Source: Clostridia bacterium (lineage in GTDB: Bacteria > Bacillota > Limnochordia > DTU080 > RSA5). Taken from it: DNA of 59,838 nucleotides. The notes beneath the pieces are model-generated. The model did not search any database. It saw only the letters and a list, made by a program, of their open reading frames with translations, and was not told where the DNA came from. The translations under genes were made by a program, and so were the position numbers. The stretch is from positions 1-59,838 of the forward strand of contig PKEX01000032.1 of assembly GCA_002919235.1 (NCBI GenBank), in the 5' to 3' direction. Below are positions 12,808 to 43,202 of this stretch, one piece after another (positions within the stretch are counted from its first letter, which is position 1; each line of letters opens with the position of its first letter).

Positions 12808-15800
12808 GTGAGCGCGGTGTATCGCGTCCATCCTCATCCGGGCTCGTCGTCCCTTTTGGAACTGATCAAGAACGCCGACGTCGACGTGAGCGGCTACCAG
12901 AGCTTGTCCCAGCTGGTGGTGACCCACGTCGACGTCGATCCCGCGGACCGCTCGTGGGAGATTTACCTGGAAGGAGCGTGCGGCGCCGACCGGGAGACGG
13001 TCCTGGAAGCGCTCCGCCGGCTTGAGGCCGAGCTGGCCCGGGCGGCGGAGGTGGAGAAGGTGCGGCTTATCGCCGACCTGGCCCCGCCGGCGGCGCCGGC
13101 GGGCGCGCCGTCGCAGGCGGGCGGGACGCCGGTCCCGGCAGGGGACGAGATTGACCCGTACATGGAGATGATCTTCCAGCGGGCCAAGGAGTGGTCGCGC
13201 CTTCAGGAAGCGGAAGAGCGGTCCGCCCCGGCCTCAAAGCGCGGCGACGACGTGCTGATGGGGCGGAGGATCACGGAGCCGCCTGTGCCCATCCGGGAAG
13301 TCCAGGACGAAGAGCGCAAGGTGGTCATCGAGGGCGAGGTCATCGCCGTCGACGTGCGGGAGATGCGCTCCGGCAGGAAGCTTCTCACCTTCGACGTGAC
13401 GGACCGGACCGACTCGATCACGGCCAAGGTGTGGGAGAGCGAAGAGCAGCTTTCCAAGGCGCTTTCCGTGGGGGACTGGGTGCGCCTGCGGGGCAGCGCC
13501 CAATTCGACACGTACGCCAACGAACTGATCCTGATCCCCCGAGACTGCATGCGGGTGCCGCGGCCCCCTTCCCGCACGGACCGGGCCCCGGAAAAGCGGG
13601 TGGAGCTTCACCTGCACACCAAGATGAGCGCCCTGGACGGGGCCGTGGACGTGGGAGAACTGATCAAGCTCCTGGCGGAGTGGGGCCATCCGGCCGTAGC
13701 CGTCACCGACCACGGCGTGGTGCAGGCCTTCCCGGAGGCCTACGCCGCGGCCTCCAAAGCCGGGATCAAGCTGATTTACGGGGTCGAAGGCTACCTGGTG
13801 GAAACGCCCCGCAAGGACGAGCGGATGTACCACATCATCCTGCTAGCCAAGAACCGAGAGGGCTTGGTCAACCTCTACAAGCTGATCTCCATCTCGCACA
13901 TGAAGTACTACCACCGCCGGCCCCGCATCCCCCGGGCTGTCCTGGAGGCGCACCGCAGCGGCCTGCTGGTGGGCTCGGCCTGCGAAGCCGGCGAGCTCTA
14001 CCAGGCCATCTTGAACGGCAAGAGCGACGACGAGATCCGGCGCATCGCGAGCTTTTACGACTACCTGGAAATCCAGCCCCTGGCCAACAACTACTTCTTG
14101 CTCGACGAGGGCAAAGTCCGTTCCGAAGAGGATCTGCGGGACATCAACCGGCGCATCGTGGCGCTCGGGAAAGAGCTGGGCAAGCCGGTGGTGGCCACGG
14201 GGGATGTCCACTTCCTCAAGCCGGAAGACGAGATCTTCCGCCAGATCATCATGGCGGGCCACGGGTTCGACGTGGAGCGGGCGACCCCGCTGTACCTGCG
14301 GACGACCGAGGAGATGCTGGAAGAGTTCGCCTACCTGGGCGAAGAGACGGCGCGGGAAGTGGTGATCGAGGCGCCCAGGGCCATCGCCGACAGCGTCGAG
14401 GCGCTGCGGCCGGTGCCGGAAGGCTTCCACCCGCCGCACCTTCCCGGGGCCGAGGAGGAGGTCCGCTCCATGGCCCTCCGGCGGGCGAAAGAGATCTACG
14501 GCGACCCCTTGCCGGAGCTGGTGGCGACTCGCCTGGAAAAGGAGCTGTCGTCCATCATCGGCAACGGCTACGCCTCGCTGTACCTCATCGCCCACAAGCT
14601 GGTGGACCGCTCGCTGAAAGACGGCTACCTCGTCGGCTCGCGCGGGTCGGTGGGCTCGTCGCTGGTGGCCACCATGTGCGGCATCACCGAGGTGAACCCC
14701 CTGCCGCCGCACTACATCTGTCTCACGTGCCACCACTTCGAGGTGTTCGACGACGGCAGCGTCGCGGCCGGCGTCGACCTGCCGCACAAGGACTGCCCCC
14801 GGTGCGGCGCGCCGCTGAAGCGGGACGGCTTTGACATTCCCTTTGAAACGTTCCTGGGCTTTCACGGCGACAAGGTGCCCGACATCGACCTCAACTTCTC
14901 CGGCGAATACCAGCCGCGGGCGCACAAGTACGCGGAGGAGCTGTTCGGCAAGGACCGGGTGTACCGGGCCGGCACCATCGCCCGCCTCGCGGACCGGACC
15001 GCGTACGGCTATGTGAAAAACTTCTTGGATCAAAAGGGGATCAGGGCGCGAAACGCCGAGGTCAACCGCCTGGTGCGAGGATGTACCGGAGTGAGGCGCA
15101 CGACCGGCCAGCATCCCGGCGGGCTGATGATCGTGCCCGAAGGGCGGGAGATCTACGAATTTACGCCCATTCAGCATCCTGCGGACAAAGACGACGCCGA
15201 CGTGATCACCACCCACTTCGACTGCGACACCATCCACGACACCCTGGTGAAGCTGGACATCCTGGGCCATGATGACCCGACGGTCCTCCGCATGCTCCAG
15301 GAGCTCACCGGCGTGGACGTGCGCAGCGTCCCCATCGACGACCCGGATACGCTCAAGCTCTTCTGCGGCCTGGAGAGCCTGGGCATCAGCCCGGAGGATG
15401 CCGGCGGCGAGGTGGGCACCCTGGCCATCCCCGAGTTCGGAACGCGGTTCGTCCGGCAGATGCTGGTAGAGACGCGGCCTTCCACTGTCGGCGAGCTGGT
15501 GCGGATCTCGGGCCTCTCCCACGGGACCAACGTGTGGACGGGGAACGCGCAGGATCTCATCAAGGCGGGCACGTGTACGTTGAAGGACGTCATTGCGACC
15601 CGGGACGACATCATGATCTACCTGATCCGGGCAGGCCTTGAGCCGGGCGACGCCTTTCAGATCATGGAGCGGGTACGAAAAGGAAAGGGGCTTGAGCCCA
15701 AGCACGAAGAGCTCATGAAGCAGCACGGCGTGCCCCAGTGGTACATCGAATCGTGCAAGAAGATCTCGTACATGTTCCCGAAAGCCCACGCCGCCGCGTA

Positions 15801-16296
15801 CGTGATGATGGCCTTGCGCATCGCCTATTTCAAAGTGCACTATCCCCTGGCGTTCTACGCCGCGTACTTCAGCGTGCGGGCGGCCGACTTCGACGCCAAC
15901 CTGGCGGTGGCGGGCCCCCGCCGGTGCCGCCAGGAGATGGAGCGGCTGGAGGCCAAGGGAAACGAGGCCACCGCCAAGGAGAAGGGGACGCTCACCGTCC
16001 TGGAAGTGGTCATCGAAGCCATGGCCCGGGGTGTGCGGTTCCTGCCCGTGGACCTCTACAAGTCCCACGTCGACCGCTTCACCATCGAAGGCGACGCCCT
16101 GCGCTGCCCGCTGGAGTCCCTTCCGGGCGTAGGCCGGGCCGCCGCGTTGGCGATCGCCGAGGCGCGGGAGAAGTCGTTCACGTCCGTGGAGGACCTGCAA
16201 AACCGGAGCAAGGTGAGCCGGACGGTCATCGAAGTGCTCCGTGAGCACGGGAGCCTGGAGGGCCTGCCGGAGACCGACCAGATCGCCCTCTTTTAG
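12808..16296 (+). CDS. polC: DNA polymerase III PolC-type alpha subunit lacking the exonuclease domain
   Basis: Replicative polymerase of low-GC Gram-positive type. Order: PolC N-terminal domain (about 1-95), Pro/Ala linker, OB fold (about 168-250, ERKVVIEGEVIAVDVREMR), PHP domain (about 262-480; HLHTK with H268/H270, TDHG with D301/H302, GDVHF with D466/H468), catalytic palm with PDIDLNFSGEYQP (D692, D694), CHHF...CPRCG zinc-like cysteines just before it, fingers, and a C-terminal HhH and duplex-binding part. It has 1162 residues against about 1440 in Bacillus. The 3'-5' exonuclease usually inserted inside the PHP domain is absent: YGVEGYLVE runs through eight residues (TPRKDERM) straight into YHIILLAKN (331-349). 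The frame is continuous. Confidence 0.95.
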   Translation: MSAVYRVHPHPGSSSLLELIKNADVDVSGYQSLSQLVVTHVDVDPADRSWEIYLEGACGADRETVLEALRRLEAELARAAEVEKVRLIADLAPPAAPAGAPSQAGGTPVPAGDEIDPYMEMIFQRAKEWSRLQEAEERSAPASKRGDDVLMGRRITEPPVPIREVQDEERKVVIEGEVIAVDVREMRSGRKLLTFDVTDRTDSITAKVWESEEQLSKALSVGDWVRLRGSAQFDTYANELILIPRDCMRVPRPPSRTDRAPEKRVELHLHTKMSALDGAVDVGELIKLLAEWGHPAVAVTDHGVVQAFPEAYAAASKAGIKLIYGVEGYLVETPRKDERMYHIILLAKNREGLVNLYKLISISHMKYYHRRPRIPRAVLEAHRSGLLVGSACEAGELYQAILNGKSDDEIRRIASFYDYLEIQPLANNYFLLDEGKVRSEEDLRDINRRIVALGKELGKPVVATGDVHFLKPEDEIFRQIIMAGHGFDVERATPLYLRTTEEMLEEFAYLGEETAREVVIEAPRAIADSVEALRPVPEGFHPPHLPGAEEEVRSMALRRAKEIYGDPLPELVATRLEKELSSIIGNGYASLYLIAHKLVDRSLKDGYLVGSRGSVGSSLVATMCGITEVNPLPPHYICLTCHHFEVFDDGSVAAGVDLPHKDCPRCGAPLKRDGFDIPFETFLGFHGDKVPDIDLNFSGEYQPRAHKYAEELFGKDRVYRAGTIARLADRTAYGYVKNFLDQKGIRARNAEVNRLVRGCTGVRRTTGQHPGGLMIVPEGREIYEFTPIQHPADKDDADVITTHFDCDTIHDTLVKLDILGHDDPTVLRMLQELTGVDVRSVPIDDPDTLKLFCGLESLGISPEDAGGEVGTLAIPEFGTRFVRQMLVETRPSTVGELVRISGLSHGTNVWTGNAQDLIKAGTCTLKDVIATRDDIMIYLIRAGLEPGDAFQIMERVRKGKGLEPKHEELMKQHGVPQWYIESCKKISYMFPKAHAAAYVMMALRIAYFKVHYPLAFYAAYFSVRAADFDANLAVAGPRRCRQEMERLEAKGNEATAKEKGTLTVLEVVIEAMARGVRFLPVDLYKSHVDRFTIEGDALRCPLESLPGVGRAAALAIAEAREKSFTSVEDLQNRSKVSRTVIEVLREHGSLEGLPETDQIALF

Positions 16297-16323
16297 GCCG
16301 GAGGCGGGAAAATGCACTGCCGC

Positions 16324-16352
16324 TTGTCAAATGGAACGAGCGGTGATATACT
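16324..16352 (+). promoter_or_regulatory. Sigma-A type promoter of the rimP-nusA-infB operon
   Basis: TTGTCA (16324-16329) and TATACT (16347-16352) are separated by 17 bases, just after polC. This gives a leader of about 190 nucleotides before rimP. The 253-base interval 16297-16549 holds this promoter and three hairpins and no gene. Confidence 0.78.
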
Positions 16353-16367
16353 ACTGCCGTGAAGGCA

Positions 16368-16420
16368 AAGGCCCCCGTGGGGCCTTGTCCGCTATTATTG
16401 AGGGACTCCGGCCTGGAGTC
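16368..16420 (+). promoter_or_regulatory. Two leader hairpins upstream of rimP
   Basis: AAGGCCCC (16368-16375) pairs with GGGGCCTT (16379-16386), and GACTCC (16404-16409) pairs with GGAGTC (16415-16420). Both lie in the transcribed leader between the promoter and rimP. Neither is followed by a long T-run. They may fold together with the third hairpin at 16475-16499. Confidence 0.45.
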
Positions 16421-16474
16421 TCTTGAATGGCGGCCAGCCTTTCGTCGATGCAGGTCATGGCGTTGTCCTTTGCG

Positions 16475-16499
16475 AGAGAGTGGGCATGTCCCACTCTTT
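16475..16499 (+). promoter_or_regulatory. AGAGTGGG/CCCACTCT leader hairpin before rimP
   Basis: AGAGTGGG (16477-16484) and CCCACTCT (16490-16497) form an 8-bp stem with a 5-base loop, extendable by two weaker pairs. A hairpin of this AGAGTGGG type sits upstream of rimP in many Bacillota as I recall it. Its role is not settled; attenuation or feedback by NusA are possibilities. It lies about 50 bases before the rimP start. Confidence 0.55.
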
Positions 16500-16549
16500 C
16501 GTACTGTTATGCTCAGTCGCTTGTTGGGCACTGGCGGTGATGGTAGAAG

Positions 16550-17017
16550 ATGAGCGGAAGCAGGAAGCAGATCGTGGAGATCTCGACCCGGCTGGCGGAG
16601 GAAGTCGGTGCCCAGCAGGGGGTTGAGGTGGTCGACGTCGAGTACGTCAAAGAGCGGGGCGAGTATTTTCTCAGGGTTTACATCGACAAGCCGGGCGGCG
16701 TCACGCTGGACGACTGCGAAGCGTTCAGCGTGGTCCTGGGCGAGCGGCTCGACGAGGTGGATCCCATCCCCAACAGTTACTCGCTGGAGATCTCGTCGCC
16801 GGGCATCGAGCGGCCCCTGAAAAAGGAGGCGGACTTCGAGAGGTTCGCCGGGCGCCGCGTCGCCGTCCGGACCTATGCGCCGCTGGACGGGCGGAAGAAC
16901 TGGAAAGGCGTGCTCCATGGCCTCAGCGACGGCCATGTGGTCCTGGAAGTCGACGGCCAGCGTGTGACGATCCCTTTGACCTCGATCGCCAAGGCGCACC
17001 TGGTCGCCGAGTGGTAG
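16550..17017 (+). CDS. rimP: Ribosome maturation factor RimP
   Basis: Assists maturation of the 30S subunit. A 155-residue protein with the family pattern: EVVDVEYVKERGEYFLRVYI and DKPGGVTLDDCEAFS in the N-terminal domain, SYSLEISSPGIERPL across the junction, and an SH3-like C-terminal domain (VAVRTY ... WKGVLHGLSDGHVVLEVDG). ATG start with only a weak ribosome site. First gene of the rimP-nusA-ylxR-ylxQ-infB-ylxP-rbfA operon. Confidence 0.96.
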   Translation: MSGSRKQIVEISTRLAEEVGAQQGVEVVDVEYVKERGEYFLRVYIDKPGGVTLDDCEAFSVVLGERLDEVDPIPNSYSLEISSPGIERPLKKEADFERFAGRRVAVRTYAPLDGRKNWKGVLHGLSDGHVVLEVDGQRVTIPLTSIAKAHLVAEW

Positions 17018-17051
17018 ACGGGCAACAACCTGAACAGGGGGAAAGGAAACG

Positions 17052-18725
17052 ATGAATCTTGAGCTTGTGGGAGCCTTAAACGAGCTCGAGCGGGAGCGGG
17101 GCATCTCCAAGGAAATCCTCTTGGAGGCGATCGAGGCCGCCATCGTCTCGGCGTACAAGAGAAGTGACCAGGCGGCGCACAACGTCCGGGTCGAGATCTC
17201 CGACAAGACCGGGCAGATCCGGGTGTTTGCGCAGAAGCGGGTCGTCGAAGAGGTGGCCGACGCCGCGAACGAGATTTCGCTGGAGGCGGCGCGAGAGATC
17301 GACCCCAACTACAGCGTGGGCGATGTCGTCGAGATCGAAGTGCCTCCCAGAGAGTTTGGGCGGATCGCGGCGCAGACCGCCAAGCAGGTGGTGATCCAGC
17401 GGATCCGGGAGGCCGAGCGCGCCCTGATCTACGAAGAATACGCCAACCGCGAGGGCGACGTGGTCACCGGCATCGTCCAGCGCTCCGACTCCCGCAACGT
17501 CCTGGTCGACCTGGGCAAGGTCGAGGCGATCCTTCCCCCCAGCGAGCAGATGCCCAAGGATACGTACACCCACGGCACCCGGCTCAAGGTGTACATCAGC
17601 GAGGTGCGCCAGACCACCAAGGGGCCGCAGGTGATCGTCTCCCGGAGCCATCCGGGGCTCCTCAAGCGCCTTTTCGAACTGGAGGTGCCCGAGATCCACG
17701 ACGGCATCGTGGAGATCCGGGCCGTGGCCCGCGAGGCGGGCAACCGCTCCAAGATCGCCGTCAGCAGCCGGGATCCCAACGTCGATCCGGTGGGCGCCTG
17801 CGTCGGCCCCCGGGGCATGCGGGTGCAGGCCATCGTCCAGGAGCTCCAGGGAGAGAAAATCGACATCGTGGAGTACTCGGCCGACGCCCAGAAGTTCGTG
17901 GCCAACGCGCTGAGCCCGGCGCGGGTGGTGCGGGTCTTCATCAACGAGGCGGAGAAGGCCGCCCGGGCCGTCGTTCCCGACCACCAGCTCTCGCTGGCCA
18001 TCGGGCGGGAGGGGCAGAACGCCCGCCTGGCGGCGCGGCTGACGGGATGGAAGATCGACATCAAGAGCGAGTCGCAGATGGCGGAGCTCGCCCTGCTGGA
18101 AGCCCAGCGGATGCTGGAGATGCGCTCGCTGGCGCAGGTGGTTGAGGAGAGCGAGCGCGCCGCGGCCGCCCGGGCGGAGGCCGCCGTCGAGGAGGCGGAG
18201 GCGCCCGCCGTCGATGCGGCGGCTGTGGCCGAGGTGGAGGCGCCCGTGGAAGAGCCCGCCGTCGAGGAGACGGGCGTCGCCGGCCCGGGTGTCGAGGAGC
18301 CGGCGGCCGAAGCGGCTCCCGAGCCCGAGGAGCCCGAACTGGATCTCGAGATCCCCGAGGACCTGTACGACGAGCTCGAGGAGGGGCGCGAGCGCTCCGA
18401 GCCCGCGGCGCCCAAAGTGAAGAAGGGGCGGGCCGCCAAGAAGGAGCTGCAGACCATCCTGGAAGAGGAGGTCCTCGACGAGGAGGAGCCCTTGCCCTCG
18501 CTGTTTGACGCTGAGGACGAAGAGGAGGACGACGCGGCTCCCGCGGTGTTCGTCATCGACGGCGGCAGCGAGGAGCCCCCGGCGCGGCCCAGCCCGCAGC
18601 CGAAGAGCGCGGCGAAGCCGGCGGCGGGGAAGAAGGGCAAGGAGAAGGTGGTTCTCAAGGACCTCTCGCAGCTGGCAAGCCTGTTGGGTTCCGTGGAGTC
18701 GGATGAAGAGCAGGATCCGTCCTAA
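17052..18725 (+). CDS. nusA: Transcription termination/antitermination factor NusA with long acidic tail
   Basis: Binds RNA polymerase and nascent RNA and modulates pausing, termination and antitermination. Order: NusA N-terminal domain (1-125), S1 domain (about 135-200, GDVVTGIVQRSDSRNVLVDLG), then tandem KH domains (about 205-345; DPVGACVGPRGMRVQAIVQEL and LAIGREGQNARLAARLTGW). The conserved part ends near residue 365. Residues about 365-557 are an unusual low-complexity tail rich in Glu, Ala and Pro, with a basic patch (KVKKGRAAKK) and a short hydrophobic end (KVVLKDLSQLASLLG). Bacillus NusA stops near residue 370. Confidence 0.96.
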   Translation: MNLELVGALNELERERGISKEILLEAIEAAIVSAYKRSDQAAHNVRVEISDKTGQIRVFAQKRVVEEVADAANEISLEAAREIDPNYSVGDVVEIEVPPREFGRIAAQTAKQVVIQRIREAERALIYEEYANREGDVVTGIVQRSDSRNVLVDLGKVEAILPPSEQMPKDTYTHGTRLKVYISEVRQTTKGPQVIVSRSHPGLLKRLFELEVPEIHDGIVEIRAVAREAGNRSKIAVSSRDPNVDPVGACVGPRGMRVQAIVQELQGEKIDIVEYSADAQKFVANALSPARVVRVFINEAEKAARAVVPDHQLSLAIGREGQNARLAARLTGWKIDIKSESQMAELALLEAQRMLEMRSLAQVVEESERAAAARAEAAVEEAEAPAVDAAAVAEVEAPVEEPAVEETGVAGPGVEEPAAEAAPEPEEPELDLEIPEDLYDELEEGRERSEPAAPKVKKGRAAKKELQTILEEEVLDEEEPLPSLFDAEDEEEDDAAPAVFVIDGGSEEPPARPSPQPKSAAKPAAGKKGKEKVVLKDLSQLASLLGSVESDEEQDPS

Positions 18726-36770: not shown

Positions 36771-36945
36771 TCCCTGCGCTGCCTACAATTGCTTGGAGGT
36801 CGGCTCTTCCGGACGCGAGAATAGCTGCCTCACAACCAGCGATCGGTTCCCCCGAAACGCCGCAGCAGACGACGACCGCGGGGCCCGGAGCGCCTTCCGG
36901 CTGCCCGGACGGCCCAGGGGCAGGTCCGCGTAAGGAGTGGCAGCG

Positions 36946-37515
36946 ATGATCATTCGCGGGGAGAAGGTCTTCCTCAGGCCGATCCGGCCGTCCGACTTTC
37001 CCAAGCTTGCCGCCTGGAGCCGCGACCGGGAAATCGCCCGCTACGTCGGGGGCCAATACCCCACACGCCTGGAAGAGTACGCAGAGTGGCACCGCAGGCT
37101 GCAAAGCGACCGGCACAGCCACCACCTGGCCATTTCCACCCACGACGACGTCCTCATCGGTCACATTGAACTGGACCACATCGCCTGGCGCAGCGGCGAC
37201 GCGGAGCTGCGCATCCGGATCGGCGAGAAGAGCTTTTGGGACCAGGGATACGGCACCGACGCCGTGCGGACCCTGGTGGAGTACGCCTTCCGGTCGATGC
37301 GGCTTTCCCGGGTCTACCTGCGGGTGTTCACCTCCAACGTCCGGGCGATCCGCTGCTACGAGAAAGTGGGATTCCGCAAAGAGGGGCGCTTGACCCGCCC
37401 CGGCCCCGACGGGCGGCTGGCCACCATCCTCCTGATGCGGATCACCCGCGCCGATCTGGCAGCCCGCCGGCGCGGCGGCCGCAGGGATCCCCGCGCGGAA
37501 GCGAAGGCCGGGTAA
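36946..37515 (+). CDS. GNAT family N-acetyltransferase (RimJ/RimL-like)
   Basis: A 189-residue acetyltransferase of the RimJ/RimL/SpeG-like GNAT group. Signatures: VFLRPIRPSDFPKLAAW at the N-terminus, IGHIELDHIAWRSGDAELRIRIGE, the acetyl-CoA loop FWDQGYGTDAVRTLVEYAF, and VFTSNVRAIRCYEKVGFRKEGRL. ATG 36946 has an AAGGAG at 8 bases; GTG 36937 overlaps that site and is less likely. Substrate unknown (ribosomal protein N-termini or small molecules). A terminator follows. Confidence 0.88.
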   Translation: MIIRGEKVFLRPIRPSDFPKLAAWSRDREIARYVGGQYPTRLEEYAEWHRRLQSDRHSHHLAISTHDDVLIGHIELDHIAWRSGDAELRIRIGEKSFWDQGYGTDAVRTLVEYAFRSMRLSRVYLRVFTSNVRAIRCYEKVGFRKEGRLTRPGPDGRLATILLMRITRADLAARRRGGRRDPRAEAKAG

Positions 37516-37592
37516 GTGATCCCCGTCACGCTCCGGGGCGCGAAAATCCCATTTTATCCGACAGGAACAGCGCTTTCCTTGTCGAACCTACA

Positions 37593-37628
37593 CCGGGACG
37601 CACCCCATCCGTGCGTCCCGGATTTTTT
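37593..37628 (+). terminator. Strong intrinsic terminator before the exbB cluster
   Basis: CCGGGACGCAC (37593-37603) pairs perfectly with GTGCGTCCCGG (37611-37621), 11 bp with a 7-base loop, followed by A and six T. It ends transcription of the acetyltransferase gene. The 52 bases between it and the exbB start contain no visible promoter, so it may instead act as an attenuator for the cluster. Confidence 0.9.
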
Positions 37629-37680: not shown

Positions 37681-38298
37681 ATGCTCGAGATCATCATCAG
37701 GGGCGGCCCCGTGATGTACCCCCTCTTGCTGTGCTCCGTCATCGCACTCGCCATCACGCTGGAACGGATCTGGTATCTCATGCGCACCCGCACCGACGCG
37801 GAGGAACTGATGGAGGACGTAAAGCTCTGCCTGCAGGAGGGAAAGCTGCTCGAGGCTATGCAGCTTCTGAAGAGGACTAAGGGACCGGTGGCCGCCATCC
37901 TCTCGGAGGGCATCGCCTACAGCGACCGCAGCAAGGACGAGATCCGCGAGCGCCTGGAAGAGGTCGGGAACGAAGAGATCTTCAAGATGGAGCGGGGGCT
38001 CGGGGTCCTCTCCGCCATCGTGACCATCTCGCCCATGCTGGGCCTCTTGGGGACGGTGACGGGGATCATCCGCAGCTTCCGGGTGCTGGGTTCCACCGGG
38101 ATTGAGACCAATCCGGCCGCCCTGGCCGCGGGCATCGCGGAGGCCCTGATCACCACGGCGGTAGGCTTGGTCATCGCCATCCCGTCCCTGGCCGTCTACC
38201 ACTGGCTGACCAGCATGATCGAGCGGCGGGTCCGTGAGATGAGCCGCCGGGCGCTGGAACTCACCGATTTGATCGCCGGCGGGGGGGCGCCGTCGTGA
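37681..38298 (+). CDS. exbB: ExbB/TolQ/MotA-family proton channel protein
   Basis: Proton-channel subunit that couples the proton motive force to TonB or TolA. The 205 residues have three predicted membrane helices (about 10-30, 108-130, 155-178) in the ExbB order. The family block between helices 2 and 3 is clear (SPMLGLLGTVTGIIRSF, then AGIAEALITTAVGLVIAIPSL). ATG 37681 was chosen because the first helix begins there; upstream in-frame sequence overlaps the terminator. The stop overlaps exbD (GTGA). Downstream exbD and tonB make ExbB more likely than TolQ. Confidence 0.92.
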   Translation: MLEIIIRGGPVMYPLLLCSVIALAITLERIWYLMRTRTDAEELMEDVKLCLQEGKLLEAMQLLKRTKGPVAAILSEGIAYSDRSKDEIRERLEEVGNEEIFKMERGLGVLSAIVTISPMLGLLGTVTGIIRSFRVLGSTGIETNPAALAAGIAEALITTAVGLVIAIPSLAVYHWLTSMIERRVREMSRRALELTDLIAGGGAPS

Positions 38299-38711
38299 AG
38301 TTCGCGTGGAACCGCCGGCAGCGGCTGGGCCCACAGGTGAACATCCTCCCGCTCATCGACGTCCTCACCTCCCTGATGTTCTTCTTGATCCTCTTTGTCT
38401 CGTTTAACGTGGCCGAGCTCGGCATCGAGGTGGAGCTGCCGCGCGCCGCCACGGGGGGGCAGCAGCCTCCCGCCAACCTGGTGGTGACCATCACGCAAAA
38501 CGGCGCCCTGTACATGGACGGGAGGCTGACCAACCTCACTGCCATCCGCCAGGCCGCGGCGGAACTGGCCCGGCGCGACCCGCAGGCGACCGTCATCATC
38601 CGGGGAGACAGCCGGTCTTACTGGGAGCATGCGGTGGGCGTCATGGACGCCGCCCGGCAGGGGGGCATCTCTCACTTCGCGTTCGGCACCCAGCCGCCCG
38701 AGAGCTCGTGA
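38295..38711 (+). CDS. exbD: ExbD/TolR-family biopolymer transport protein
   Basis: A 138-residue partner of ExbB. It has a short cytoplasmic N-terminus, one membrane helix (about 18-37) that includes the essential Asp (D22 in LPLIDVLTSLMFFLILF), and a periplasmic domain (IEVELPRAATGGQQ, LVVTITQNGALYMDGRLTN, TVIIRGDSRSYWEHAVGVMD). The start GTG overlaps the exbB stop by 4 bases, implying stoichiometric translation. Confidence 0.93.
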   Translation: MKFAWNRRQRLGPQVNILPLIDVLTSLMFFLILFVSFNVAELGIEVELPRAATGGQQPPANLVVTITQNGALYMDGRLTNLTAIRQAAAELARRDPQATVIIRGDSRSYWEHAVGVMDAARQGGISHFAFGTQPPESS

Positions 38712-38771
38712 CGGCGGTTTCGGGCTTGAGGCCAGGGGCGCCGCCGTAGGCCGGTCCGGGGATGTGATGCC

Positions 38772-39791
38772 ATGTACGACTTCGAAGACCAGCGCAGGAT
38801 GCCGGTTTTCATCTTCATCTCCATGGTGCTGCACGCCCTTCTCTTCTTGATCGCACCGCACGTCATCTCGGGTGTGTTCTCCGTCTCGTATGCCGGCGAC
38901 CAGGGAGGCTTGACGTACCTCACCCTGGTGGACGCCGCGATCCCCGAGCGGCCGCGGGCCGTGGCGGCGCAGGCGGCCCGCAGGCCCCAGGCGACGCCGG
39001 CGCCGCGGCCTTTGCCCGAGCCCAGCGTCCCCGCGCCGGCCCGCACCGAACCGGCGCCCGCGCCGGCCCCCGTGCCGGAGCAGCCCAGAGCGCCCGAAGT
39101 ACAGGCGCCAGCGGCGCAGCCCGAACCGCGGCAGCAGCCCGAGCCGCCCTCGCCGGCTCCGGCGCCGGCTCCGGAAAACCCGGCCGGCGCGCCGGCCGAA
39201 GAGGCCACCGCGGCGCTGCAGCCGGTGCTGACGGCCAGCCAAGGGCCGCCCACCGCCCCCGTGGTGAACGCGCCTCCCAGGGTGGAGGAGCCTGCGGAGG
39301 CCAGCGGCGCGACGGCGGCGTTCAGCGGGCCGCCGGCCCGCACTGACGACGCGGCGGGCGAGCGCTCCGGCGGCGCGGAGCCCGGCGGCACCGGTGCGAC
39401 GGACGATGTGCCGTTGTCGCTGCCGGGTGCCGAAGCCGCCGCGGAGCCGGCGCTGCCGCCGATGGGGGAGTCCATGATCCGGGTGCCGGGCGGCCTGGGT
39501 TACCCCAAGAATGCGGTGGGCCTGATCAGCCGCCCCGTCACGGTGGAGGTGGCGGTGATCGTCGATCCGTCGGGCAGGGTCGTGGAGACCGTGGTGACAC
39601 AGAGCTCCGGGATCGACTACATCGACGACTACTCGCAGACCGTGGCCAGCCGCGGAATCGTTTACCTGCCTTATGACGAAATGTACGAGATCCGGGTGGT
39701 CCTGGTGTACGACCCCCGGGAGAGCAGCCTGACGCACCGGGTCGACGGCTTTATCAAGGCCCCGCCCACGGTGGGTTCGTTCGCCCGGTAG
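38772..39791 (+). CDS. tonB: TonB-family energy transducer
   Basis: Links the ExbBD motor to partners across the periplasm. The 339 residues show a single N-terminal membrane anchor (about 11-34), a very long Pro/Ala/Glu-rich linker (about 55-225, many PAP and PEP repeats) and a C-terminal TonB-like domain (about 243-317: GYPKNAVGLISRPVTVEVAV, then DPSGRVVETVVTQSSGID, and VVLVYDP). The linker is long enough to span a periplasm. In a Bacillota genome a TonB usually implies an outer membrane. No TonB-dependent receptor gene is in the window. Confidence 0.88.
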   Translation: MYDFEDQRRMPVFIFISMVLHALLFLIAPHVISGVFSVSYAGDQGGLTYLTLVDAAIPERPRAVAAQAARRPQATPAPRPLPEPSVPAPARTEPAPAPAPVPEQPRAPEVQAPAAQPEPRQQPEPPSPAPAPAPENPAGAPAEEATAALQPVLTASQGPPTAPVVNAPPRVEEPAEASGATAAFSGPPARTDDAAGERSGGAEPGGTGATDDVPLSLPGAEAAAEPALPPMGESMIRVPGGLGYPKNAVGLISRPVTVEVAVIVDPSGRVVETVVTQSSGIDYIDDYSQTVASRGIVYLPYDEMYEIRVVLVYDPRESSLTHRVDGFIKAPPTVGSFAR

Positions 39792-39821
39792 GCTCGCGCG
39801 CTCGACATGGGAGGAGATCGA

Positions 39822-41975
39822 GTGAAACGCCGTGACGCTTTGAGGTTCCGCTCCGGTCCCGTTCCCGCCCGAATCCTGGCCTGTCTCGCCGTCGCGCTGC
39901 TGTTGAGCGCTCCCGCGGGGGCCCAGGAAGGGGCGAGAGCGTTCCTGGCGGGGCCGGAGGAGCCGGAAGAGGCCGACGAGGGCGTCATCCGGCTGTACAA
40001 CGAGTACATCTCGATCCTAGTCAACACGACCGAGGAGAACACCGGGCGCTTCGCCGTCCAGACCACCGGCGGCGACCCCGACCGGGCGTCGGACGACAAC
40101 AGCCCCTTGATCTACCTGATCCCGGGGCAGAAGCCGTGGACGTCGTACGCGACGGTGCGCATCGACGGCATCGACTACGTGTTCGGGGGCAGGCCCACCG
40201 AGCGGGCGGGGCGTGCGGGCCTTTACGGCGAGATGCTGGTGGCGCCTCACGTGGTGGACGATCGCCGCATCGAGACGGTGTACCGCATCGGGCCCGTGGA
40301 CGTGACGCAGGTGCTCAGCATCATCCGGAGCTCCACCACGGGGCTCTTGGATACGGTGCGCATCGAGTACCGGCTGGTCAACACGTCGGACCAGGTGCAC
40401 CACGTGGGCTTGCGCCTCATGATCGACACCATGCTGGGCGCCAACGACGGGGCCCCCTTGCGCGTCGGGGAGCTGGCCATCACCACGGACACGGTGTTTG
40501 AAGGCGACGCGATCCCCGAATTCTGGCAGGCGTTCGACTCCCTTTCCGATCCGAAAGTGACGGCTCAGGGGACCTTGAAGGGCGACGACGTGACGCCGCC
40601 GGACCGGGTCTACTTCAGCAACTGGGGCGCCCTGGCCGACGGGCTCTGGGAGTTCGACTTTCAACCGGGGCGGGATTTCACGCGCCTCGGCGAGTTTGAA
40701 CTGGACAGCGCGACGGCGCTCTACTGGGATCCCCGGCCTTTGGCTCCCGGCGAGGAGCGGGTTTACGTGACCCATTACGGCCTCGGCGGCATCTCGATCT
40801 CGCCGGGCGACCTTTCCATCGGGGTGACGTCGCCCTCTACCGTGACGGCGGATCCCGACCGGACGGTCACCTTCCCGGTGGTGGCGTACATCCAGAACAC
40901 CGGCGAAGGCGAGGCGAGGAACGTGGTGGCCCGGATCCAGCTGCCGCAAGGCCTGAGGCTGGCCGACGGCGAGCAGGCCGTACGGCAGCTGGGCAACCTG
41001 CCTACGGGCAGGAGCGCTCAGGTGACGTGGCGAGTCGCCGTGGACCGTGCGGTGGGCGGGGAGCTCACCTACACGGTGCGGGTCGAGGCCATCAACGCGG
41101 AGCCCAACCAGGTGAGCCGGGCCGTTCGCATCGTGTCGCCGGCGGCCCTCACCATCACGCTGCTGGAGCCGCAGGGGCGGCTGAGGATGGGTGAATCCGG
41201 CTGGGAGCCGCTGCCGTACCGGGTGACGGCCCGCGTCCAGAACACCGGCGGGGCGGACGCGAACAGCGTCATCGTCCGCTGGGATTCGCCGCTGGGGTTG
41301 GAGCTCGCCCGGGGAAGCCGGGCGGAGAAGCTCATCGGTCCCCTGCTGGAGGGAGAGGCATTCGAGGTCAGCTGGTATATCCAGCCGGTCACTCGCCCGC
41401 AGCCGTACAACGGCAACCTGCCTTATACCGTACAGGGGCAGATTTTCGGGGGCAGCCAGGATTACCGGGCCAACGGGTTCCTGGACGTGCCGCTGTTCGA
41501 GGGCGAAGTGAGGGCCGAACCGGTCCGCGTTGACGGCGCCGCCCCGGTGCGGACGGGCGACCGCGTGCTGGTGGATATCGTCGCCCGCAACGCCCGGAAG
41601 TTCTACGGCGCCGAGATCGTGGTTCGGTATGACCCGACGGCCCTGGAGCTCATCGGCCGGGCGATCTACCCGGGGCGGCTCTTCTTTGAAGAGGTGCGGG
41701 ACGGGGAAGACGCCCGGGTCCTGGCCTGGAAGGCGCCGGAAATCCAGCTTCCGGTCCGGGAGGGGGCCGCGGCCGAGGTGACGCTTAGAGGCGAGCGGGC
41801 CGGCGCCCGGCAGCCGGAGCTCTACTGGGCGACGGACACCATCGCCACGCTGAGTTTCCGGGTCCTCAAGCCGGGAACTCACAGCATCGAGCTGGCTGAA
41901 GTCCGGGTGTACGACGCCGCCGGCCAGGTGGTCAAGGTGGCGGCCGCCGGCGGGCGGATCTCGGTGGGGGAGTAA
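39822..41975 (+). CDS. Secreted multi-domain protein with CARDB/DUF11-like repeats and a cohesin-like C-terminus
   Basis: A 717-residue exported protein. A signal peptide spans about 1-34 (twin Arg in KRRDALRFR, hydrophobic ACLAVALLLSA, AGAQ cleavage). Next is a beta-rich domain of unknown type (about 45-320), two Ig-like units of the CARDB/DUF11 kind (about 325-440 and 445-560, each with VQNTG or IQNTG and a V-x-W strand), and a cohesin-like domain (568-712: GDRVLVDIVARNARKFYGAEI, VVRYDPTALELIG, DTIATLSFRVLKPG). GTG 39822 follows GGGAGGAG. There is no membrane anchor or SLH. It lies between tonB and an SLH protein gene. No dockerin is seen nearby. Function unknown. Confidence 0.7.
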   Translation: MKRRDALRFRSGPVPARILACLAVALLLSAPAGAQEGARAFLAGPEEPEEADEGVIRLYNEYISILVNTTEENTGRFAVQTTGGDPDRASDDNSPLIYLIPGQKPWTSYATVRIDGIDYVFGGRPTERAGRAGLYGEMLVAPHVVDDRRIETVYRIGPVDVTQVLSIIRSSTTGLLDTVRIEYRLVNTSDQVHHVGLRLMIDTMLGANDGAPLRVGELAITTDTVFEGDAIPEFWQAFDSLSDPKVTAQGTLKGDDVTPPDRVYFSNWGALADGLWEFDFQPGRDFTRLGEFELDSATALYWDPRPLAPGEERVYVTHYGLGGISISPGDLSIGVTSPSTVTADPDRTVTFPVVAYIQNTGEGEARNVVARIQLPQGLRLADGEQAVRQLGNLPTGRSAQVTWRVAVDRAVGGELTYTVRVEAINAEPNQVSRAVRIVSPAALTITLLEPQGRLRMGESGWEPLPYRVTARVQNTGGADANSVIVRWDSPLGLELARGSRAEKLIGPLLEGEAFEVSWYIQPVTRPQPYNGNLPYTVQGQIFGGSQDYRANGFLDVPLFEGEVRAEPVRVDGAAPVRTGDRVLVDIVARNARKFYGAEIVVRYDPTALELIGRAIYPGRLFFEEVRDGEDARVLAWKAPEIQLPVREGAAAEVTLRGERAGARQPELYWATDTIATLSFRVLKPGTHSIELAEVRVYDAAGQVVKVAAAGGRISVGE

Positions 41976-42000
41976 ACCGGTGATGAGAAACGAGGTGCCG

Positions 42001-43140
42001 ATGGTGAAAGCTCTGATCAGACCGTTGTCGATGGCGCTTCTCCTGGGGGCCCTGCTCCTTGCGGCTTGCCCGGCCGCAGTTTCCGCCCAGGCGGTGCAGG
42101 ACGTTCCCCGCACCCACTGGGCCTATGAGGCCGTGATGAAGCTGGTGGAACGGGGATACCTGGCCCTGGAGGACGGCCGTTTCCGAGGGGACCAGCCCGT
42201 GGACCGCTTCACCTTGGCCGAAGTGGTCGCCAAGATCCTGAACGAGATCGAGACGGGCGCGGTGGGCCCGCGAAGCCGCGAGGACGTGGAGCTCTTGCGG
42301 CGGCTGGTGACGGAGTTTGAAGCCGAACTCGTCGATATTTACGCGGGGATCGAGCAGAACCAGGCCCGGGCGGAGCGGAACGAGCGGGAGCTCCTGGTGC
42401 TCAAGGCCCAGATGACCGAGTTCATCGACCAGGTGCAAGCGGATCTCGACCAGTTTGACCGGGCGCTGCGGGAAGGCCTCGCCGAGCAGGAGGCGAAGCG
42501 GCAGGCGGAACTCCAGGCGCAGGCCATGGCGCTCCGCGCGGAGATGGGAGCGCTGGAGAGCAGCGTCCGCCAGGCGCTGGCCGAGAGCGGCATCGCTTTG
42601 GGCGACCTCTCGGAGTCGCTGGCGGCCGATTCGGCCCGCCTGGAGGCGCTCCAGTCGGAAGTGCGCGAGCTCTCCCAGGAGCTGGAGGTGGTCCGGAGCG
42701 GGCTCGAAGAGGCGCTGCGGGAGTTCCTGAGTGAGCTCAACGCCCATTCCGAGGCGCTGGCCGCGCAGCAGCTGGCCCTGGACGAGCAGCGCCGGGCGGA
42801 CAGCGATCTCCTGAAGGGCCTGGAGGCCGCCGTGGAGCGGCTCAGCGCGATGCAAGGGCGCCTCGACGCGGTGGAGCGCCAAGTGGTCGCCATGCAGAGC
42901 CAGATCGGCCTTTCCGAGGAGCAGCTGCGGGCTCTCAGCGACCGCCTCATGAGCGAACTGGAATCGCAGTACCAGCACAGCTTCCTCTTTGCGGGCACGG
43001 TGGCGGATGAACTCAAGGCGCTGCGGGAGGAGTTCGCCAGCTACCGCCAGAGGACCGAGCGGGAGCTTCAGGGCGCGAGGAACGCCCAGATCTTCGGCAT
43101 CATCGGCGCCATTTTGGGTCTGATCAGCCTGGCCAACTGA
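42001..43140 (+). CDS. SLH domain-coiled coil-C-terminal hydrophobic segment envelope protein (Omp-alpha-like)
   Basis: A 379-residue exported protein. It has a signal peptide (1-31, ending AVSAQA, with a possible lipobox LAAC at 20-23), one SLH domain (about 33-83: DVPRTHWAYEAVMKLVERGY, then RFTLAEVVAKIL), a continuous Glu/Leu/Ala coiled coil (about 95-350), and a C-terminal hydrophobic helix (about 361-378, IFGIIGAILGLISLAN). This order matches Omp-alpha of Thermotoga, where SLH binds peptidoglycan and the C-terminal helix sits in the outer membrane, and resembles OmpM without the beta-barrel. ATG 42001 follows GAGGTG; GTG 41980 is an alternative start. It is last in the exbB cluster. Confidence 0.8.
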   Translation: MVKALIRPLSMALLLGALLLAACPAAVSAQAVQDVPRTHWAYEAVMKLVERGYLALEDGRFRGDQPVDRFTLAEVVAKILNEIETGAVGPRSREDVELLRRLVTEFEAELVDIYAGIEQNQARAERNERELLVLKAQMTEFIDQVQADLDQFDRALREGLAEQEAKRQAELQAQAMALRAEMGALESSVRQALAESGIALGDLSESLAADSARLEALQSEVRELSQELEVVRSGLEEALREFLSELNAHSEALAAQQLALDEQRRADSDLLKGLEAAVERLSAMQGRLDAVERQVVAMQSQIGLSEEQLRALSDRLMSELESQYQHSFLFAGTVADELKALREEFASYRQRTERELQGARNAQIFGIIGAILGLISLAN

Positions 43141-43178: not shown

Positions 43179-43202
43179 AGAGGGCGCCGGGTGGCGCCCT
43201 CT
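43179..43202 (+). terminator. Hairpin, probable terminator after the envelope cluster
   Basis: AGAGGGCGCC (43179-43188) pairs perfectly with GGCGCCCTCT (43193-43202), 10 bp with a 4-base loop. The following bases (CTTCGCGCTTTGG) are only weakly T-rich, so termination may be partial. A TATGAT at 43216-43221 just downstream is a possible -10 for the next operon, without a clear -35. Confidence 0.6.

Follow-up and report, generated by a model that had tools for sequence, protein, structure and literature searches.

A conserved ExbB–ExbD–TonB cassette with an SLH-domain protein in diderm Bacillota, proposed as a Tol-Pal-like force transducer

What does an ExbB–ExbD–TonB motor drive when the genes that follow it on the same strand encode a secreted multidomain protein and a protein with an SLH domain? 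The question is raised by positions 37681–43140 of the window, the whole stretch of 59,838 nucleotides analysed here, which forms contig C13 in a draft genome (G000) of 2.24 Mb and 99.45% completeness. A sequence-only reading of this DNA had suggested that the five genes may form one envelope machine in which the proton motive force is passed to an outer-layer structure. Here, we propose that the cassette is a proton-driven trans-envelope force transducer, Tol-Pal-like in its working; it is kept in nearly all sampled two-membraned Firmicutes outside one class.

Five genes and their products

The sequence-only reading had placed exbB, exbD, tonB and two further genes on one strand. All five open reading frames were found in the sequence, and family matches agree with that description; the two further genes are here called coh and slh. 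The features of the locus are as follows.

37593–37623, + strand: hairpin resembling an intrinsic terminator, between GNAT and exbB (11-pair stem with 9 G-C pairs, T6)
37681–38298, + strand: exbB, exbB/tolQ-type proton-channel subunit (PF01618, 3.5e-33)
38295–38711, + strand: exbD, exbD/tolR-type subunit (PF02472, 1.5e-23; conserved transmembrane aspartate D22)
38772–39791, + strand: tonB, TonB/TolA-like transducer with an N-terminal transmembrane segment carrying SxxxH, a Pro/Ala-rich span and a TonB-type C-terminal domain
38820–38834, + strand: SxxxH motor box of the transducer (S17–H21), from the sequence
39807–41975, + strand: coh, signal peptide, supersandwich, two Ig domains and a cohesin fold
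39972–40796, + strand: supersandwich of coh (galactose-mutarotase/GH94-N fold), residues 56–330 (Z approximately 16.6 over 223–245 residues, rmsd 3–3.7)
40809–41441, + strand: Ig-like domains 1 and 2 of coh (DUF11/NEW3), residues approximately 335–545, from family search and model
41496–41972, + strand: cohesin fold of coh, residues 564–722 (3l8q, 4e-14; 4fl4, Z 16.4 over 137 residues, rmsd 2.3)
41980–43140, + strand: slh, signal peptide, one SLH domain, coiled coil and hydrophobic C-terminal helix
42091–42249, + strand: SLH domain of slh (SLH 3e-5; SlpA 3e-12, OmpM1 3e-6)
43081–43137, + strand: hydrophobic C-terminal tail of slh, putative outer-membrane anchor, from the sequence
43180–43201, + strand: hairpin downstream of slh (perfect stem of 9 pairs, no T-run)

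The spacing differs from the 25–60 bases first estimated: there is a 4-base overlap between exbB and exbD, and the later gaps measure approximately 60, 15–30 and 4–25 bases, varying with the choice of start codon. A ribosome-binding site (ggagg) precedes the exbB ATG at 37681, and a GTG frame opens earlier, at 37516; ribosome-binding sites likewise suggest alternative starts for coh (GTG 39822) and slh (ATG 42001). The strong terminator said to precede the set is real as a structure, but the terminator scan returned no more terminator-like matches than shuffled sequence did. The hairpin said to close it is a perfect stem without a T-run and is not among the terminators called by the scan.

Apart from the exbB product, the window's genome has no non-flagellar MotA/ExbB-family protein; a second PF01618 protein was set aside as flagellar MotA, followed by a MotB-like protein that carries an OmpA-like domain. 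The C-terminus of the tonB product matches TonB_C weakly (0.007).

Family searches with coh returned DUF11/NPCBM_assoc (approximately 3e-8) and Cohesin (3e-4), and the profile comparison with solved cohesins reached 4e-14 (to 3l8q). In the structure model (mean pLDDT 83, from 21 sequences) the supersandwich spans residues 56–328 and resembles GH94 N-domains and mutarotase relatives. Integrins, the top Foldseek rows, were set aside as relatives, their TM-scores lying near 0.2 and their likeness being that of chained beta domains. Mean pairwise identity is 58% in the supersandwich, 43% in Ig1, 36% in Ig2 and 26% in the cohesin domain, and 60 of the 275 supersandwich columns are invariant. The signal peptide, Ig-like repeats and cohesin-like end had been recognized from the outset, but the N-terminal supersandwich, the best conserved part of coh, had been overlooked; the cohesin fold on which stress was laid is present but is the least conserved domain, and the supersandwich is the core. 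Since it is the best conserved part, the supersandwich appears from sequence comparison to be the likeliest seat of a function shared by coh proteins. More distant supersandwich relatives occur inside other large proteins (G071:C29:103648-104856, G127:C25, G130:C201 and G109:C48), in genomes without Omp85.

The description of slh as an SLH, coiled-coil and hydrophobic-tail protein holds in all three parts. By phmmer its SLH domain is nearest to SlpA, then to Veillonella OmpM1. The protein therefore shares an N-terminal SLH domain of the same type with the OmpM/SlpA tethers of Terrabacteria but, to judge by its model, not their C-terminal outer-membrane beta-barrel; it is modelled as two long helices, helical from the SLH domain to the C-terminus. 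A fold search with this model gave no solved relative below E 0.001, which is expected of a long coiled coil. Homologues range from approximately 226 to 1447 residues in length, and the hydrophobic tail is kept in 68 of 69 complete ones, the exception ending in masked sequence. We propose that this tail sits in the outer membrane, although it could insert in the inner membrane instead. An N-terminal SLH domain, a long coiled coil and a hydrophobic C-terminus are also the parts of Thermotoga maritima Omp-alpha (OmpA1), which fastens the outer sheath to the cell wall (PMC3387000, PMC9388160). The likeness is one of architecture; for ompA1, the porin gene ompB is the neighbour on record, with no report of motor genes beside it (PMC3387000).

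These features bear on the possibility that the motor serves the outer surface, with slh and coh building or moving an S-layer or adhesin, or powering gliding or secretion. Surface layers and cellulosomes are known to contain SLH and cohesin domains, and an S-layer is present in some Limnochordia (PMC11456536). However, the SLH domain is closest to those of the OmpM/SlpA tethers, slh ends in a helix and not in a surface domain, coh shows neither an export route nor an anchor for the outer surface, and the cassette is confined to genomes with BamA. We consider an outer-surface motor quite unlikely.

Conservation of the cassette

A scan of GTDB r220 gave 214 relatives, and cassette contigs were drawn from the best 80 of these, which are labelled Bacillota, Clostridia or unclassified and include Halanaerobacter, Orenia, Halonatronum, Frackibacter and Halanaerobiales MAGs. 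Sixty-six contigs among the best 80 of 214 hold all five genes, and all 66 carry exbB-exbD-tonB-coh-slh in this order on one strand; a strict order-and-strand script passes 65 of them, the last (L100) deviating only through overlapping stop-to-stop frames. Their lineages are Limnochordia, Halanaerobiales and other Bacillota. The order is also kept at 17 of 17 further phylum-wide loci, 15 of them with all five genes called; among the 17, the contig of L209 ends at tonB and in L212 tonB is uncalled. SxxxH lies in the transmembrane segment of 70 of 72 cassette TonB proteins, one miss being a truncated frame and the other, on inspection, a stop-to-stop frame artefact.

In the sample of the window's own class, coh is matched in 59 of 61 genomes (in G048 by a C-terminal fragment only), and 20 wide neighbourhoods keep the cassette order wherever each gene is called, following dacF-spoIIAA-sigF-GNAT; nifS-thiI, downstream of the cassette, is often missing from these 20. 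The flanks change between lineages: Limnochordia have dacF-spoIIA-sigF-GNAT beside the cassette, Halanaerobiales have spmA-spmB-PHP and his genes, and the surroundings are different again elsewhere. Synteny of a larger block is thereby ruled out as the cause of conservation, and it is the cassette itself that is conserved, not its neighbourhood. The gene-neighbourhood search that the sequence-only reading had recommended has therefore found the set kept in relatives, excluding the lack of conservation that was to speak against a single machine. The GNAT acetyltransferase gene (36937–37515 of the window) immediately precedes exbB in the Limnochordia neighbourhoods and in L208, not in the Halanaerobiales loci.

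Conservation of this kind might be explained by a house-keeping operon of two uncoupled halves, a general Ton motor beside a structural coh/slh pair, for shared regulation can keep neighbours together. Gene fusions between any two cassette proteins, sought as evidence of contact, were not found, which is compatible with such an arrangement. Conversely, the five-gene unit persists in several unrelated and changing flanks, and every coh genome has ExbD, which lies 0.8–1.4 kb from coh on one contig in 32 of 33. In the exception, G164, the two genes are on separate contigs, one of which ends at tonB. Two halves with nothing to join them are, in our estimation, very unlikely.

Outer-membrane markers and Ton receptors

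The cassette closely follows a marker of the outer membrane. Omp85/BamA was found in 36 of 149 phylum genomes and ExbD in exactly these 36; coh of full length (E below 1e-150) occurs in 33 of them, spread over 18 families, and in none of the other 113 (Fisher p 5.5e-30, with relatedness not corrected). Within the window's class, 71 of 73 genomes have Omp85. Limnochordia are a class of the diderm Bacillota, and electron microscopy has shown an outer membrane in them (PMC11456536). At one locus of the window's genome (L234; G000:C31:1-6000) bamA stands beside a 1011-residue open reading frame that is TamB/AsmA-like by eye.

The three genomes of the phylum sample with Omp85 and without coh (G088, G129 and G200) are all of one class and all have receptor-linked Ton loci, and full-length coh is found in 0 of 80 genomes of that class. 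A bamA-ompH-lpx cluster in L249 suggests that this class is probably the Negativicutes. A coh relative in this receptor-only class was considered and rejected, the matches being weak ones to Ig domains in unrelated contexts. Two genomes of the window's class (G002 and G054), both drafts in many contigs, likewise have Omp85 and no coh match. The cassette is thus not required by every outer-membrane envelope.

A TonB-dependent receptor (PF00593), for which a search had been advised from the sequence, was not found in the window's 99.45% complete genome, with controls positive. Receptors over the cut-off occur in 7 of 73 genomes of the class and in 10 of the 33 coh genomes. A second ExbD stands near a receptor in six genomes (G010, G122, G139, G160, G174 and G193), and the receptor loci L206, L229 and L231 have their own exbB-exbD beside fec-type genes. 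In a tree of 47 ExbB rows, the receptor-locus proteins all lie on one side of a branch with support 73/94, and the labels could not be accounted for by fewer changes. G174, G139 and G122 each have two motors, which the tree puts in separate places. Receptor-linked Ton loci with receptor, exbB, exbD and tonB (L225–L231) were seen in several cassette genomes and in G129, and several such loci also carry iron-siderophore ABC genes.

The cassette is like the Ton system in its homologous ExbB-ExbD-TonB, its motor residues and its SxxxH box; it differs in that most carriers are without a receptor and that receptor loci use their own exbBD, apart from the cassette motors. It could nevertheless be that the cassette performs ordinary Ton import, the receptor being encoded elsewhere or too divergent, with coh and slh aiding substrate capture, for example of glycans on the supersandwich. 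The typical motor parts and residues would fit, as would a supersandwich fold known from carbohydrate enzymes and the 10 receptor-bearing coh genomes, some of which (G084, G132, G164 and G197) yielded a single ExbD. Set against import are the missing receptor in the window's genome and in 23 of 33 coh genomes, the distinct receptor-linked motors of the six genomes above, the lack of any known import role for a peptidoglycan-binding SLH tether and the co-occurrence of the cassette with BamA rather than with receptors. We judge import unlikely.

A precedent exists in the Halanaerobiales, where exbB-exbD-tonB of Halothermothrix orenii were reported together in 2009, no receptor was found and the authors proposed a different function (PMC2626281). 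We compare this locus by its published description, which includes neither the two downstream genes nor the wide conservation.

Comparison with Tol-Pal and a proposed machine

The order of two motor genes, a transducer, a secreted protein and a peptidoglycan-binding envelope protein is that of E. coli tolQ-R-A-B-pal. As with Tol-Pal, the cassette accompanies an outer membrane and has a proton motor of TolQ/TolR type: the window's proteins score 104.9 bits with tolQ versus 92.4 with exbB, and 55.2 with tolR versus 41.7 with ExbD, all below the equivalog cut-offs. In contrast, the adaptor and tether are of unrelated folds, with no TolB propeller and nothing over the Pal cut-off, and the transducer combines a Pro-rich span with a TonB-like C-terminus. 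TolB (PF04052, TolB_N) was found in 0 of 149 phylum genomes, that of the window included, and Pal (TIGR02802, Pal_lipo) over its cut-off in 0 of 149, with controls positive for both. Sub-threshold OmpA-like matches are present in most phylum genomes, the sole one in the window's genome being motB (C3:151200). The resemblance of coh to TolB is one of position only, not of fold. The best reading is that the cassette is Tol-Pal-like in order and logic without being a member of the Tol-Pal family.

In Tol-Pal, the proton motive force dissociates TolB from Pal, freeing Pal for wall binding (PMC8928145), and this mechanism serves as the model for our proposal. ExbB and ExbD would form the inner-membrane proton motor, and the TonB/TolA-like protein, coupled through its SxxxH transmembrane segment, would carry force across the periplasm. 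There, coh would act as an adaptor in the position of TolB, and slh as a tether in that of Pal, with its SLH end on peptidoglycan or its polymer and its C-terminal helix in the outer membrane. At the division site, for instance, the motor might then load the tether, release it or shift its position. Such a scheme would entail contacts of the tonB product with coh and of coh with slh, remodelling of the tether and a role in division.

The part of the sequence-only claim that concerned one conserved unit is strongly supported; the structure to which force is passed is better read as a tether between outer membrane and peptidoglycan, rather than as an outer S-layer, since the SLH domain is of OmpM/SlpA type and the protein has the Omp-alpha architecture. 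On balance, we lean towards a machine driven by proton motive force that spans the envelope and holds or remodels the attachment of outer membrane to peptidoglycan, as a functional counterpart of Tol-Pal. The job of holding the outer membrane, done in E. coli by the unrelated Tol-Pal, is probably done here by the cassette. Whether diderm Bacillota own a second, independently assembled Tol-Pal-like machine, composed of motor, supersandwich/Ig/cohesin adaptor and SLH tether, we regard as evenly poised.

The sequence-only reading knew of no described system with this combination, and our literature search, with subscription papers outside its coverage, likewise found the five-gene set nowhere described. 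Reports of Tol-Pal come only from Gracilicutes and those of Firmicutes Ton systems only from Negativicutes, and further systems that stabilize the outer membrane are expected by reviews (PMC12204202); atypical diderms are without pal and tolB (PMC8871954). If our proposal is true, the cassette would be the missing energised outer-membrane stabilizer of lineages without Pal and TolB, and would explain why ExbB-ExbD-TonB is retained in species without TonB-dependent receptors. In such diderms it makes the attachment of the outer membrane during growth and division a testable question, and a cassette of motor and SLH tether does the same for the receptor-less ExbB/ExbD/TonB of H. orenii (PMC2626281). 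It also bears on the view that Tol-Pal originated from a Ton paralogue.

The window's genome further encodes a separate OmpM-like protein (L232:4460-7120; G000:C15, about 15459–18119), with a signal peptide, an SLH domain containing FTRYEMA, a coiled coil and a long C-terminal part that is rich in beta structure and has F as its last residue. Therefore, slh is not the sole tether, and bulk tethering may fall to this OmpM-like protein. Another SLH-like open reading frame comes after the OmpM-like gene in L232, and in some lineages an extra SLH-domain protein is encoded upstream of exbB (L208:3811-4401, L219:2030-2764 and L094:5061-5759).
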